From Salinivirgaceae bacterium (GTDB lineage Bacteria; Bacteroidota; Bacteroidia; Bacteroidales; SZUA-534): a stretch of 64,000 bases of DNA. Where the stretch lies: positions 1 to 64,000 of the forward strand of contig JAFVGW010000003.1 of NCBI GenBank assembly GCA_017474765.1. The letters run 5' to 3'. Of this stretch, positions 38,884-55,045 are shown piece after piece (the stretch's first letter is position 1; the number at the start of each line of letters is the position of its first letter). Under the pieces are notes generated by a model that was not told the DNA's origin, did not search any database, and saw only the letters and a program-made list of their open reading frames with translations. Made by a program: the position numbers and the translations under genes.

Positions 38884-39720
38884 CTATTTGCGACGAATGG
38901 GGCGAACAGAAAAGCCGTCACAACGATAGTGTGCACCTAATGGGCCTAAAAATCCGTTATTTATAGACATATAACGAGCTTCTCTAGGGCTAAAAGAATT
39001 TGTAGCAGACCAGTAATTACCATAGTATCCCCCCTCATTAAATCGGAAAGATGCTGGGAAGAATATATGTATGTCAGCAAGAGAATATTCACTCAATGGG
39101 TTGTCACCATTATAAAAGCCCAACCAATTCATATCTAACACCATTCCAGTTAAGTTGTCAATTATCCCCTTAACTTCATCACGCGTATAACTATGATACC
39201 CCCTATTAATTGCTTTGTCCTCATCGCATTTGGCCTTATATACGATATACCCTGACACACCAGTATTGTTATAGTCGGTAGTCCAAATCCAATAGCATTG
39301 GCTGCATAATTCCACCCAATCTGGCTCCGTTGGCGTTGAATAGTTACCACCCACTACCATTGTGGCTGCATCGTCAGCAGGTTCCAGGGTGTAAAGTTTA
39401 TCGCAAAAATCATTGTCACCACAAATGGGGTCATCGCAGTATTTAGTGAGCATAGGTCTGGCTTCACCGCCAGTGCAATATTTGTAGTTGTCCCAATTGT
39501 AGACAGATTTTGATGAAGTTTCACCCCAAGCGAAATAGTCACCATAGTCCCAAGGCTTTTCAGCCCCCACATTGCAGGTTGCCCATAATGTTCCACTTGG
39601 TAATCCTAAATCTACAACATTGTTGTCTTCAGGTTCATCCTTTTCTTTATCACAAGCCGTTACGCACACTAAAGCCGATAGAGCAAGGATGGAATACTTT
39701 AGAATATTTATCTTTTTCAT
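38884..39720 (-). CDS. FISUMP-type lipoprotein
   Basis: From ATG 39720 the product has 278 residues. A lipoprotein signal peptide with lipobox VTAC is followed by a domain of the Fibrobacter succinogenes major paralogous type. The markers are VDLGLPSGTLWATCNVGA, YGDYFAWGET, GNYWSATNS and the C-terminal GFSVRPIR. This C-type-lectin-like fold is common on Bacteroidales surfaces; its ligands are unknown. Placement is odd: it interrupts the yajC-ybbR-coaE cluster and is preceded by a long hairpin element (39825-39954). Confidence 0.85.
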   Translation of the reverse strand: MKKINILKYSILALSALVCVTACDKEKDEPEDNNVVDLGLPSGTLWATCNVGAEKPWDYGDYFAWGETSSKSVYNWDNYKYCTGGEARPMLTKYCDDPICGDNDFCDKLYTLEPADDAATMVVGGNYSTPTEPDWVELCSQCYWIWTTDYNNTGVSGYIVYKAKCDEDKAINRGYHSYTRDEVKGIIDNLTGMVLDMNWLGFYNGDNPLSEYSLADIHIFFPASFRFNEGGYYGNYWSATNSFSPREARYMSINNGFLGPLGAHYRCDGFSVRPIRRK

Positions 39721-39794
39721 TTTTACAATTTTAATTCGTTTTTTATTTTTTTTATTAAACATATCAGCACCGAATTTGAAAGATTGACATATAA

Positions 39795-39954
39795 AATTAG
39801 CGTGGTGCTAATTCGCTTTCAATCGACCTCTTTAGGATTTACTGGACTACCTGTTTATGCCAATCTATGTGAAATAAGCCCACGCTTACGCATAGGCATT
39901 TCGGCTTTATATTCTGGCATAAACGACTTAAAAGTGTCCAGTTTTTAAGAGGTC
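39795..39954 (-). ncRNA. Long nested hairpin element E1, candidate structured RNA
   Basis: Read on the minus strand, four nested stems are visible. They are GACCTCTT/AAGAGGTC (foot), ACTGGAC/GTCCAGT, GTTTATGCCA/TGGCATAAAC and GAAAT/ATTTC. The apex is GCCTATGC-GTAA-GCGTGGGC, closed with G-U pairs and a GNRA-type loop. A second short hairpin (AATTAGC/GCTAATT, 39795-39813) with a T-rich tail follows. It shares its apex, GGYAGTCC and CCTAAAGA segments with the element at 51145-51284. The role is unknown: structured RNA, attenuator or palindromic mobile element. Confidence 0.55.
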
Positions 39955-40174
39955 AGATTTATTGCTAAAACGCTATTTATGTTGTAATGTCTTTAAACTG
40001 TTATTTTACCATAGGCAAATAAGTTTAACATCAAATTCATTAACTATCTTGTTGCAATTGTATACGTACTTCTCAATCGTGACTTACGTAAACTATTGCC
40101 GTATTATTTTTGTTTATTGCAAATTTAGGAATTTGATAATTGATATGCAAAAGCGGAAATGCTATCCGCATAAA
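39955..40174. other. AT-rich spacer upstream of the hairpin element
   Basis: I see no gene in this AT-rich stretch. It contains GTTGCAATTGTATACG and several T-rich runs but no convincing promoter pair. Confidence 0.3.
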
Positions 40175-50544: not shown

Positions 50545-50640
50545 TTTATGGAAATCCAAATCAGCGGTAGTGGAAAATATTGGATTTTCTTTTGTAAGTT
50601 TGTAGGCAATGCAATAAAATGATAAAATAAGTGCTTGTTT

Positions 50641-50982
50641 ATGAGCAACATTGAAAGCGTAAACCTTTTTTCAGACTTATGTACCATTGTTGAAACAACA
50701 AAACGCAAAACTGCGGTTGCTATCAACAGCGGCATAGTGTTTATGTATTGGAATATTGGGCACCGCATAAACACCGAAGTTCTTGATAACAAGCGTGCTG
50801 AATACGGAAAACAAATTGTGTCGACACTGGCGACACAATTGAATGAGCATTTGCAGTTAGACCAATCAGGCATACGCGTGGCACAATATCTGACCGAATT
50901 TCCATCGAAGGAATTACTTCAGAAGCATTTGCGCCATCATATTGAAAATGATAGTGATGAATGTGCCGATTCTGATTTTTAA
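50641..50982 (+). pseudogene. DUF1016 (YhcG-like) nuclease with internal deletion
   Basis: The 113-codon frame starts like the N-terminal domain of DUF1016 proteins (INSGIVFMYWNIGHRINTEV ... RAEYGKQIVSTLATQLNEH). It then passes directly to what is normally the extreme C-terminus (SGIRVAQYLTEFPSKELLQK). Full-length relatives are about 340 residues, so roughly 230 residues including the PD-(D/E)xK core are missing. It is probably a non-functional remnant. It lies next to a restriction-modification pair, where DUF1016 genes are often found. Confidence 0.75.
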
Positions 50983-51144
50983 GAATGCAGAAAGTTTTCA
51001 ATTATAAGGTTACACCGCAACTTTCCACAGAAAAATTATTTTTGTGATTGGAAAACATTTAAACATTATTGAATGAAGTAAAGAAAAAGTTTAACTAACA
51101 TATTATTAATCAGCGTTTGTTTATTATTCGGAATCATCTTTGAA

Positions 51145-51284
51145 CCTAGGAAATTCAAAAATTACGAGTATTCACACGAATAAGTCAATGAATGCCTACG
51201 CTATGCGTGGGCTTGACTTATCTGTGAATACGGGCAGTCCTAGGGCCTAAAGATGTGGATAATGTTTAAGTCCACATTTTTTTA
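51145..51284 (+). ncRNA. Long nested hairpin element E2 plus terminator, candidate structured RNA
   Basis: Nested stems on the plus strand are CCTAGGA/TCCTAGG, GTATTCACA/TGTGAATAC, ATAAGTCAA/TTGACTTAT and the apex GCCTACGC-TAT-GCGTGGGC. The hairpin ATGTGGA/TCCACAT with a T-run (51253-51284) follows at once. Apex and 3' flank (GGCAGTCC, CCTAAAGA) match element E1 at 39825-39954, while the outer stems differ in sequence yet still pair. That pattern fits a conserved structure. No promoter is obvious. Confidence 0.55.
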
Positions 51285-51342
51285 TCCCAAAGGCAGTCCG
51301 TCAGCCCGAAACAGATAAGTGAGCGCGCAACCCACAAGGCGT

Positions 51343-53547
51343 ATGGCAAAATCTTTTACAGAAGCGAAAAATGATTTCGATAAACAGTATGGTAATTCAT
51401 CAGAATACCAATGTTTTTTACCTGAGCATCTGACCATTGGCAAGAGTACAAACTTGCGGAAAAGTAATGGTGACAAAAACGAACAATACTATAAGTGGCA
51501 GTTTCTTTATAGTATTGTTAATTCTGGATTATTCCCTAAAGATTTGATTGGTACAGAAATAAACTTTCCAAAAGGGAACAAATCATCTGCAGCGATAAAG
51601 TTAGATGGCGCCATTTTTGATGATGCCGTATGGTTTGATAAATATAAAGATTATCATCAATATAATAACGCCGACAGTCTTGATTGGTTGCGCAAGCATT
51701 TGATTGTTGCGCTTGAATTTAAAAAGGAAGACAGCAAAAATATTTCTGAGGTATGGGACAAACAATTAAAAGCCTATATGAAGGAGAGTGAGGCAGATTT
51801 TTGTTTGGGCATACTATATGATACCGAAAGGCTTTATTTGTTCCGTAAACACAATAATAAATATATACGTTACAGCGACGAATATAATATAAAAGGCATA
51901 GCAAGCAGCACAAAAGAGATGTCGCTGCATTTGCCCGACCCATACCGCAATATTCCAAACCTTAGTAAGGTAGTAAATTGGGTGGGTGCCAAAGAAATAG
52001 ACCGTTCAAGCCGAACAATAAATGACTTAGAAATAATCTCAGGCTTGCAATCTACCCAAATCAATGACGCAATGTCTGCCATTCTGCGGAGATTAGACAA
52101 ACTGGGAATGGTTAATCAAAAAGGTTTCGAAATCTTGGTACAAATTCTTTCGCTGAAAATTTATGATGAAAAACGAAATGAAAGGCAACCCGATAGGAGT
52201 CTTGATTTTTATGTTAAGTCAGAAGAAAGGAATTTTAATAGTTTGGCGGACAATGGGGTAAGAACATTTATTGAACGCATAACAAAATTAAAAGATGAAG
52301 CGACAGAGACTTATTACCGTATTTTACAAAACACAATATTAGATACTAAGGATGAAAAACACGTTCGAATACTGATAGAGGTTGTATATCAATTTCAAGA
52401 CTACTCATTTGTAAATTCACAGAAAACAGACCTTTACCAACTTGTGTTTTACAAATTTGCTGGACAGTTCTCAAAGGACCAAAATGCTCAATTTGTAACG
52501 CCTTTGCCAATGATTGATTTCCTAGTAAACATTGTGAATCCGAGAAATGGTGAAACTGTAGTTGACCCAACTGTCGGCATTGCGGATTTCCTTTCTGTTT
52601 CTTATGTAAACTCAAAGAGCAAACTTGATGACAAAAACATATTTGGGATGGACATTGACGACCAAATGGTTATGCTTGCCACTCTTAATATGCTTTTGAA
52701 TGGCGATGGAAACGCAAAAATTGTTGCACAAACCGATGGCTATGGTTCTTTACTTACCAAATTTTCAAACACTGGAGAGCCTTTGCAACTGATTCCGTCA
52801 ATGAACCAATATGGAGATTGGGACAATCGCCCCGATACGCAAAAACTCAAAAAGTTTGATGTTGTTTTAACCAATCCACCTTTCGGGGAAGACCGCGCGT
52901 TTGTTCCGAAAGAACCGAAGGATTTGGAAGTGATACAATGTTATGAACTTTGGAAATTATACGGGCAAAAAAATGAATTAAACGAGGATGAAAGCCCCGA
53001 CATTAAAGGTCAAAAGAAAAATAAGAAAGAACCAAAACCAAAAGATGCATCAAAAATTGATTTGGGTGTGGTGTTTTTGGAGAACGCATACCGCATTTTA
53101 AAAGAAAACGGTCGATTGGGCATTGTGTTGTCAAATTCCATTGCTAGTATCGATTCGCATAGAGTGGCACGACAATGGCTAATGGACAAAATGCGTATAG
53201 TTGCAATGTTCGATATGCCTGCAAATGTTTTTGCAGAAACGGGTGTAAATACCACGATTATAGTTGCATATAAACCAACCAATGATGAACTTAAACGACT
53301 GCAGGAACAAAATTATGAAATTTTCGTGCGTGATATACAAAAGGTTGGCTATGAGGTAAAAACAAGTAAACGTGTAAAATATTTCTCACCAACTTATAAA
53401 ATCAATTACGAAACTTTTGAAACTGAAATTGACGAGGACGGTAATCCGTTGCTTGACGAAGATTTTTCACAGACAATTGTGGATTTCCGTCAATGGTGCA
53501 TTACCCAAGAAAAAAACTTGCAAGATTTATTCATAAAAGAAAAGTAA
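51343..53547 (+). CDS. Restriction-modification enzyme: nuclease-methyltransferase fusion (BcgI-like)
   Basis: From ATG 51343, behind an AAGG, the product has 734 residues. The N-terminal domain looks like the HsdR_N/PD-(D/E)xK nuclease fold: D88 in KLDGAIF and E125-x-K127 in VALEFKKE. The C-terminal part is an N6-adenine methyltransferase with NPPFGEDRAF (about 509-518). Motif I reads DPTVGIADFL instead of the common DPxxGSGxFL. No helicase motor is encoded. Nuclease plus methylase in one chain with a separate S subunit is the type IIB (BcgI) layout. Confidence 0.82.
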   Translation: MAKSFTEAKNDFDKQYGNSSEYQCFLPEHLTIGKSTNLRKSNGDKNEQYYKWQFLYSIVNSGLFPKDLIGTEINFPKGNKSSAAIKLDGAIFDDAVWFDKYKDYHQYNNADSLDWLRKHLIVALEFKKEDSKNISEVWDKQLKAYMKESEADFCLGILYDTERLYLFRKHNNKYIRYSDEYNIKGIASSTKEMSLHLPDPYRNIPNLSKVVNWVGAKEIDRSSRTINDLEIISGLQSTQINDAMSAILRRLDKLGMVNQKGFEILVQILSLKIYDEKRNERQPDRSLDFYVKSEERNFNSLADNGVRTFIERITKLKDEATETYYRILQNTILDTKDEKHVRILIEVVYQFQDYSFVNSQKTDLYQLVFYKFAGQFSKDQNAQFVTPLPMIDFLVNIVNPRNGETVVDPTVGIADFLSVSYVNSKSKLDDKNIFGMDIDDQMVMLATLNMLLNGDGNAKIVAQTDGYGSLLTKFSNTGEPLQLIPSMNQYGDWDNRPDTQKLKKFDVVLTNPPFGEDRAFVPKEPKDLEVIQCYELWKLYGQKNELNEDESPDIKGQKKNKKEPKPKDASKIDLGVVFLENAYRILKENGRLGIVLSNSIASIDSHRVARQWLMDKMRIVAMFDMPANVFAETGVNTTIIVAYKPTNDELKRLQEQNYEIFVRDIQKVGYEVKTSKRVKYFSPTYKINYETFETEIDEDGNPLLDEDFSQTIVDFRQWCITQEKNLQDLFIKEK

Positions 53548-53548
53548 A

Positions 53549-55045
53549 ATGGGTAGTTACATTCATATTCCAAATGCAATAGACTTGCAAGAAATTGTAA
53601 ATAACAATTTTTCGTTGTCATCGTCTCAATATGTAAAACTTGTAATGCCAAACAAAAATTACAAGTTTGTGCGCGATTTTTTGAAACGTCCGCTGAATCG
53701 TAAAGATTTGGGTGTTGAAGTAGGCTCTTTAAACTATATTGATGAATCACCGTATCTCTTTATAAGAACCCAAGCATTTCAAGAACATTCATTTTTACTT
53801 GATATCAACAAAGAATCTGCTTTGCCGATTATGCCATCGGTATTTGTGCAAATGAATTTAAAAGAAGGTGATGTGCTGATTTCAAAAGACAGCAATATTG
53901 GTGAAATTATAATTCTTGACAAGGACTATCCCAATTGTATGCTTTCTGGTGCGATTTATCGGCTTCCCGTAAAAGATGAGTGGCGTTATTATTTGCTGGC
54001 ATTAATCAAGCACCCAATTTTTCGTGAACAATTGGATTTTATGGTTCCGAAAGGCGCAACAATCCGCCACGCAAAAACGAAGTTTTTAGATTGCAAAATA
54101 CCATTACCTAATAATAACGCAGAAAAGGTAGTTTATTTCATTTCGTTGCTTACACAGGCAATTGTTAATAAAGAAAAAATAATCCATCATCGTCATATTG
54201 CGATTTTACAACTCATTGAAAAAGAACTTGAAGAAAACCAAAGCAACAGCGACTTTTGTTACAACTTGCCAAAGTTTACAGAAGTAGAAGAATTAAATAG
54301 AATTGATACAAATATGTATAGGTTCTATTTTAAAAAAGAAGTTTTCAAAATTGTTAATTATCGTAATGGCAGTAAAAATATTGACGAATTAGGCTTTAAG
54401 ATGTCAAGGGGGCAAAATCTTCAAGTGTCCAATATCGGTAAAAGCATTTATTCTGATGAAAAACACCCCAATTTTTATACACTTGTGTTACCTAAATTTT
54501 TGTCAAAATACGGTATAATAGATAAAGTCAAATATTTAGGAAATCAAAACACATTAAAAGAACTAAAAGAAGGAGATTTAATAATAGGTGCAGAAGGATT
54601 TGAAAAGGGAAGGTCTATCGTAGTTATAGAAGGTAAGTCAAAAACTATTACTAATATTCACGGCATCACAATCCAACAAGAAGAACATAATTTGTTGAAA
54701 GCGGTTTTTGTGAAGTGTTTTTTGGACTATTTAAGGAGTAAAGGGCTAATTGATTTATTCGCAGTAGGTGGAAATGGCGGAAGTTTGGCTCAGAAATATT
54801 GGACATATATTCCTTTCCCCAATTTCCCTGAACCCAAACAAAAAGAGATAGCAAAATTGTATCACAACCCAAAAGAATACAAAACGGAGGATTTTACCCT
54901 TGATAATTTCTTGACCAAGGATGATGAATTTAATTCTACGGCTGGCATCTATGAATTGGACAAAACGGCCAAATACTTGAAAGACAAGTTAAACAAGGCC
55001 ATAGACGATATTGTGAATGATAGAGAAGTGAAAATCGAGTTTTAA
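53549..55045 (+). CDS. Restriction-modification specificity subunit (HsdS-like)
   Basis: The 498-residue protein is encoded one base after the methylase stop. It has two target-recognition-like halves separated by a helical stretch (IVNKEKIIHHRHIAILQLIEKELEE). The second half contains FKMSRGQNLQVSNIGKS and ends with the helical YLKDKLNKAIDDI. S subunits read the bipartite DNA target. The DNA is AT-rich compared with the flanking sulfur genes, which suggests horizontal transfer of the island. Confidence 0.85.
   Translation: MGSYIHIPNAIDLQEIVNNNFSLSSSQYVKLVMPNKNYKFVRDFLKRPLNRKDLGVEVGSLNYIDESPYLFIRTQAFQEHSFLLDINKESALPIMPSVFVQMNLKEGDVLISKDSNIGEIIILDKDYPNCMLSGAIYRLPVKDEWRYYLLALIKHPIFREQLDFMVPKGATIRHAKTKFLDCKIPLPNNNAEKVVYFISLLTQAIVNKEKIIHHRHIAILQLIEKELEENQSNSDFCYNLPKFTEVEELNRIDTNMYRFYFKKEVFKIVNYRNGSKNIDELGFKMSRGQNLQVSNIGKSIYSDEKHPNFYTLVLPKFLSKYGIIDKVKYLGNQNTLKELKEGDLIIGAEGFEKGRSIVVIEGKSKTITNIHGITIQQEEHNLLKAVFVKCFLDYLRSKGLIDLFAVGGNGGSLAQKYWTYIPFPNFPEPKQKEIAKLYHNPKEYKTEDFTLDNFLTKDDEFNSTAGIYELDKTAKYLKDKLNKAIDDIVNDREVKIEF

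Follow-up and report, generated by a model that had tools for sequence, protein, structure and literature searches.

The closest described systems to the element studied here, E2, are riboswitches and leader attenuators, with which it has in common the 5′ position, a conserved folded domain with an intrinsic-terminator-like hairpin behind it, and competing folds. Unlike these RNAs, the E2 family has a conserved module after the terminator, no match in Rfam 15 at the loci searched and no known ligand, and unrelated restriction-modification genes, instead of those of one pathway, are found behind the leader. Among the RNAs of Bacteroides, FopS consists of a single-stranded 5′ stretch and a terminator hairpin and has 14 members, which act in trans on SusC-type mRNAs (PMC11697453). 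Like FopS and GibS, E2 belongs to a multi-copy Bacteroidota RNA family with terminators; unlike FopS as described there, E2 has nested, pseudoknotted helices and sits before its gene. An RNA with a single-stranded 5′ seed and one terminator hairpin is not what we found, as the 5′ half of E2-type RNAs lies in conserved helices.

Candidate structured RNAs of Bacteroidetes were reported in 2010, including the GUCCY-hairpin, with names and taxa (PMC2864571). The word "restriction" is absent from the main text of that report, and those of its motifs that are in Rfam gave no match here; the GUCCY-hairpin, without an Rfam number in the table, is outside this comparison. Several Bacteroidetes RNAs of 80–132 bp, called terminators, are among the human-microbiome candidates (for example HMP2_4205 and HMP2_1032; PMC8040213). 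Their associated genes (TPR, ruvA, tonB) are unlike those of our type B leaders, described below, and "restriction", "methylase" and "defense" have no occurrence in the main text, but an overlap is not excluded. A search of Rfam 15 gave no match in the window or in 20 member loci, and a permissive threshold gave only chance-level matches; assignment to an Rfam family was rejected, everything tested being below the gathering threshold. Judged by titles and the openings of abstracts, no paper found in the open-licence literature describes an RNA leader of restriction-modification genes, or this motif. Among structured leader RNAs, the class of E2 stands out in two ways: it is dedicated to restriction-modification systems, and a third strand is conserved behind the terminator.

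The window, that is, the whole stretch of 64,000 nucleotides analysed, comes from a Salinivirgaceae bacterium. Our analysis indicated that E2 is probably a cis-acting structured leader with its own promoter, which controls a restriction-modification operon by attenuation together with a three-strand switch, although there are no expression, termination or translation data. The leader occupies positions 51093–51345 of the plus strand (250 nt) and reaches as far as the start codon of the N6-methyltransferase gene behind it. The earlier note had placed a hairpin element at 51145–51284; it is present there on the plus strand, but its true extent is longer, with a start near 51093, P1 from 51135 and a post-terminator module reaching 51343. 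Read from 5′ to 3′, E2 has a set of nested stems, among them a pseudoknot; a terminator hairpin that carries a T7 tract; a second conserved module; and the start codon. Its folding energy is −55.7 kcal/mol (z −6.70), and none of 200 shuffles was equally stable.

The gene behind the leader, at 51343–53547 (+), was predicted by Pfam to encode an N6-adenine DNA methyltransferase (N6_Mtase, Eco57I). Its open reading frame was listed as 51319–53547 with a GTG start, and the ATG at 51343 is in frame. It is followed at 53549–55045 (+) by a gene resembling those of type I specificity subunits (Methylase_S, also by Pfam). Directly 5′ of E2, at 50635–50982, there is a short DUF1016_N reading frame of 115 aa, apparently truncated.

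The apex of E2 was matched exactly at four places in the window's own genome, and other genomes of the genus added eight; a covariance model, R1, was built from nine of these sequences. Run on the window's own genome at E ≤ 1, R1 gave 12 matches, of which one is weak. Genomes with a match numbered 48 of 295 in the order, 23 of 295 in the class and 3 of 247 in a sample of the phylum, tallies that take in the window's own genome. The per-genome counts in these large scans are lower bounds, only 11–13 candidates having been scored per genome. In two genomes of about 2 Mb (G097 and G289) all 11 of 11 scored candidates matched, so that further copies are possible there, and the two of their copies that were seen (L147 and L148) stand before BspA-like leucine-rich repeat proteins. 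A DNA pattern scan of named genomes yielded 99 stretches, of which 93 had a model match (94 matches); the six without one include stretches from Lactococcus, Fibrobacter and two Bacillota bins. The named hosts were Bacteroidales and other Bacteroidetes bins (Paludibacteraceae, Salinivirgaceae, Rikenellaceae, Prevotella) and one Empedobacter. BLASTN searches of plasmid and phage collections with the leader gave no match. The search of this and related genomes that the earlier note had proposed brought together 133 distinct members, including nine seeds, one artefact (L162 on the minus strand, the reverse complement of a real match) and two weak or partial matches (L245:3934 and L265). E2 is one copy of a widespread, apparently undescribed Bacteroidia family of folded RNA leaders.

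The second member in the window, E1 (39823–39956, minus strand), was identified by motif and model matches 5′ of a predicted lipoprotein gene (38884–39762) and belongs to type A. As had been claimed, E1 and E2 have in common the apex (GCCTAYGC / GCGTGGGC), GGYAGTCC and CCTAAAGA, and their outer stems differ in sequence while each still pairs: CATCTTT/AAAGATG, CCTAGGA/TCCTAGG and GTATTCACA/TGTGAATAC in E2, and GACCTCTT/AAGAGGTC, CTGGAC/GTCCAG and GTTTATGCCA/TGGCATAAAC in E1. Both are followed by a hairpin with a T-rich tail and then by a gene on the same strand; in E2 this is the local hairpin at 51253–51277 with its T7 tract, and the T4 tract of E1 is weaker. The halves of the apex occur in the 64-kb window about as often as shuffles allow; the apex alone is neither diagnostic nor rare, and structure was therefore the criterion for accepting copies. 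An apex-only pattern search of viral contigs was discarded as giving only chance matches: among the matches listed, none had GGYAGTCC or CCTAAAGA downstream, and the covariance model, run as a control on 100 apex-bearing viral loci, matched none.

The protein encoded behind E1 (minus strand) is lipoprotein-like, has no Pfam match at E 0.001, and contains a sequence resembling the Fibrobacter succinogenes major domain. Five type A leaders (L001, L125, L128, L129 and L130) were seen to have about 330 bp in common, from TTTGCCTATGG to AACAGTAGGC. This block, possibly a mobile unit, exceeds the RNA fold, and the genes behind it are not all the same.

The leaders that we call type B, to which the following analyses mainly refer, were defined by RNA sequence alone and make up 49 of the 133 members. 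Sorting the members by their P1 flank, or by TTATC alone, had proved imprecise. The alignment used here (A8) contains 45 type B leaders. L149, L171, L184 and L241 were left out before counting; two of these are divergent members before non-restriction genes, one is cut by a contig end, and one is divergent and Flavobacteriia-like.

In the first fold, the 5′ strands of the nested stems (A) pair with their 3′ strands (B). The outermost stem, P1, which is supported by the A:B covariation, has its 5′ strand at 51135–51141 and its partner at 51249–51255. Within it lies the P1a hairpin GAA/TTC (51142–51156), whose loop contains the 5′ strand of P2, so that a pseudoknot is formed. P2 (CCTAGGA, 51145–51151) pairs with 51238–51244 and shows double changes in six of its seven pairs, and P3 (51168–51176) pairs with 51223–51231, with double changes in all eight pairs counted. 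The 5′ strand of P4, AATAAGTCAA (51179–51188), has its partner at 51213–51221; here 99.0% of cells are paired and most positions are invariant. The apical hairpin GCCTACGC-TAT-GCGTGGGC follows at 51194–51212 (99.4% of cells paired in the columns counted). All these features are on the plus strand.

The A:B helices comprise 37 pairs in A8, with 94.1% of cells paired and double changes in 21 pairs (224 cells). Their covariation was 0.379 against 0.163 in shuffles, and the measures for paired cells, double changes and covariation were each reached by none of 500 shuffles. When the alignment was slid, paired cells fell to 28–47%. The number of further pair types in A:B did not go beyond shuffles (173/500). 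The covariation of P1a was likewise reached by 0 of 500 shuffles, both on A8 and on alignment A4, which had been fitted to R1, though P1a is no part of that model. Compensatory changes, whose absence from other copies would have refuted the element, are abundant in A:B, P1a and the B:C helices described next. The structure is kept by compensatory changes and the element is positioned upstream of, and in line with, the genes, as expected of a structured leader.

The strand B (51213–51255, the 3′ strands of P4, P3, P2 and P1) has a second partner, as indicated by folding, permutation and covariation. Module C (51284–51326), after the terminator, can pair with it at 51296–51301 with 51230–51235 and at 51311–51320 with 51216–51225, which places the terminator at the apex of the B:C fold. 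When E2 was folded from P4′ to the start codon, a hairpin of −45.1 kcal/mol was obtained in which B is paired with the post-terminator sequence and the terminator is at the tip. On the alignment, B:C comprises 19 pairs with 90.4% of cells paired, double changes in eight pairs (21 cells) and a covariation of 0.209 against 0.164 (0 of 500 shuffles). In duplex permutations, for which 47 of the 49 type B members were used, two lacking a T-tract or flank, B:C with its own partner gave −32.47 against −28.34 with permuted partners (sd 0.48; 0 of 2000). Because A:B and B:C share strand B, the two folds are mutually exclusive. Outside type B, the preference for the own partner was not significant overall (164/2000, n = 81), L151, L161 and L153 being striking exceptions.

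A further helix may be closed between C and the conserved 5′ block and tail X (AACTAACATATTATTAATCA / AGCGTTTGTTTATTATTCGG, 51093–51131), a feature that rests on A8 and on the X:C duplex permutation (own −20.53, permuted −18.84; 0 of 2000, 47 type B members). The X:C covariation on the fixed alignment did not go beyond shuffles (122/500), and we keep this predicted closing helix as suggestive only. For A:C and X:B duplexes in the same 47 members, own partners were not better than permuted ones. None of these permutation tests corrects for relatedness among members.

Between B and C there is an intrinsic-terminator-like hairpin, ATGTGGA/TCCACAT with a T7 tract at 51277–51283 (51253–51283 as a whole), whose stem is nearly invariant, with 98.2% of cells paired. 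With T-tracts in 131 of the 133 members, the terminator-like site between leader and gene that an attenuator needs is present, termination itself not having been shown. In a mixed set from the order, the strand before the T-tract is complementary, with covariation, to the apical 3′ strand (own 7.1, permuted 6.34; 0/5000, n = 46/47), which implies that terminator and apical hairpin compete in those members. The same test is weak on the A5 set (35/5000 with a difference of only 0.06), the apical strand there being fixed by the search pattern. The type B terminator, by contrast, is a local hairpin; it overlaps P1 by only 2–3 nt, so that it is nearly compatible with A:B, and an exclusive choice between terminator and antiterminator is not shown for this type. 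A factor could then decide, and the fold might instead be the binding site of a processive antitermination or RNA-binding protein in whose presence the terminator is bypassed; that unrelated genes have one leader in common would also suit such a factor. We regard this as unlikely, since no candidate factor was identified and the covarying B:C fold would remain unexplained.

The surroundings of the leaders are also regular. TAnnTTTG is the consensus of the Bacteroidetes −7 box. Of 129 members, 79 carry it 40–150 nt upstream on the element's strand, where 9.4 were expected, and 19 carry it on the opposite strand. On this enrichment, TATTTTTG at 51037–51044 (+) is the likely promoter box of E2. 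A same-strand open reading frame follows in 128 of the 131 members with enough flank, at a median of 71.5 nt past the T-tract, and in most type B leaders the start codon comes about 28–34 nt after the GAUAAG of module C. The copies therefore do not lie randomly inside genes, which would have spoken against the element, and together with the covariation and the T-tracts this supports the proposal of a class of structured RNA or attenuator. A GCGC hairpin close to the start codon in type B was not supported (441/5000).

With a promoter box and a terminator of its own, and with several copies in a genome, as in the 12 matches noted above, the terminated leader could also be a small RNA acting in trans, the gene behind it being a mere neighbour or a target. 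This seems very unlikely to us: nearly all copies lie just 5′ of a same-strand gene, conservation runs past the terminator to the start codon, and B pairs better with its own C than with that of other copies, as expected in cis. The earlier observation on E2 holds and was understated; it missed the B:C fold, the pseudoknot, the promoter box and the restriction-modification specificity.

Two variations were seen in individual members. In L158, L165, L153 and L155, which are not type B, a short hairpin-like motif, approximately TTTTGGGNCTGG, follows the T-tract. In L208, L229, L233 and L218, unrelated sequence breaks into module C after CCGAA, and three of the four leaders have a palindrome-like stretch there, similar to GACACAATGCATTGTGTC; the interruption is possibly a later insertion.

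Of the first genes behind type B leaders, 42 out of 47 were restriction-modification-like, 38 by Pfam and four as type II methylases by PADLOC. The Pfam domains of the 38 were N6_Mtase, HSDR_N_2, MmeI, Eco57I, D12, N6_N4, C5, EcoRI methylase and ResIII-type helicases. The five not counted were those of L132, L149, L150 (radical SAM, with a weak viperin match), L171 and L234; L149 and L171 are thus included in the 47. Single-linkage BLASTP sorts the 47 proteins into 15 groups, so the count does not represent 47 independent cases. Upstream of type B (n = 46), DUF1016/YhcG nuclease genes were the neighbours in nine cases, and no methyltransferase was among the 25 of the 65 upstream families that were listed. 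Behind the other subtypes lie mainly genes for secreted or surface proteins (LRR_5, Por_Secre_tail, FISUMP; 74 proteins), and restriction genes are few there: three named and up to three more from tallies, assumed as 6 of 81, for which reason the Fisher p is indicative only and is not relied on. Protein set A6 was not used for the association because L151, L152, L166, L172, L213 and L259 had been chosen by their genes; under the RNA-only rule L151, L161 and L172 fall outside type B. In the window's genome the leader is present at only three of about 20 methyltransferase matches (three Pfam families).

E2 and its relative L127 have the same nucleotide at 216 of 244 leader positions, and their flanking DNA does not align (88/216 upstream, 117/348 downstream). 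A BLASTP comparison of their two proteins gave nothing meaningful (E 0.001 over 100 residues). Likewise, of the 680 pairs of type B leaders that could be aligned over 180 nt or more, 628 stand before proteins that show no similarity in BLASTP. Near-identical leaders before unrelated proteins indicate that the leader behaves as a separate module. They would also be found if the element worked at the level of DNA and served to swap genes, either as a miniature mobile element or as a site of recombination, its inverted repeats then folding in the DNA itself, and X and C do resemble terminal inverted repeats. G-U pairs, however, are common in the A:B and B:C helices, the orientation, T-tract and start-codon distance are fixed, and a promoter box lies upstream, so that we regard a DNA element as very unlikely.

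Returning to the cis-acting leader, the sequences show the order X-A-B-T-C-AUG, with two exclusive conserved folds, a terminator-like hairpin between B and C and a gene in the same direction. That transcription terminates and that the folds switch is inference, as are the signal and the direction of control, and all evidence is computational. The leader would be transcribed from its own promoter, and part of the transcripts would stop at the U-tract. Read-through transcripts would carry C. This strand could displace A from B, or else pair with X, and may thereby alter access to the start codon. A ligand or protein on the A:B pseudoknot domain might set the balance. The RNA class would be a separate module reused by many genes, in type B mainly by restriction-modification systems.

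Restriction-modification systems need controlled expression on entering a new cell, and their known control is mostly by proteins. It is possible, and we propose it only tentatively, that type B is a horizontally reused immunity control module, placed before unrelated type I, II, IIG and III systems in Bacteroidia, and that its switch holds these potentially self-damaging systems silent or low until the fold is flipped by a common signal, such as an attack by phage or arrival and establishment in another host. If this is true, a leader shared by most of these first genes, including those of unrelated systems, would mean a common RNA-level control of bacterial immunity, and unannotated defence genes would become easier to find. 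As for the wider family, which stands before variable surface proteins, it would then amount to a large class of regulatory RNA that has gone unannotated in Bacteroidia.
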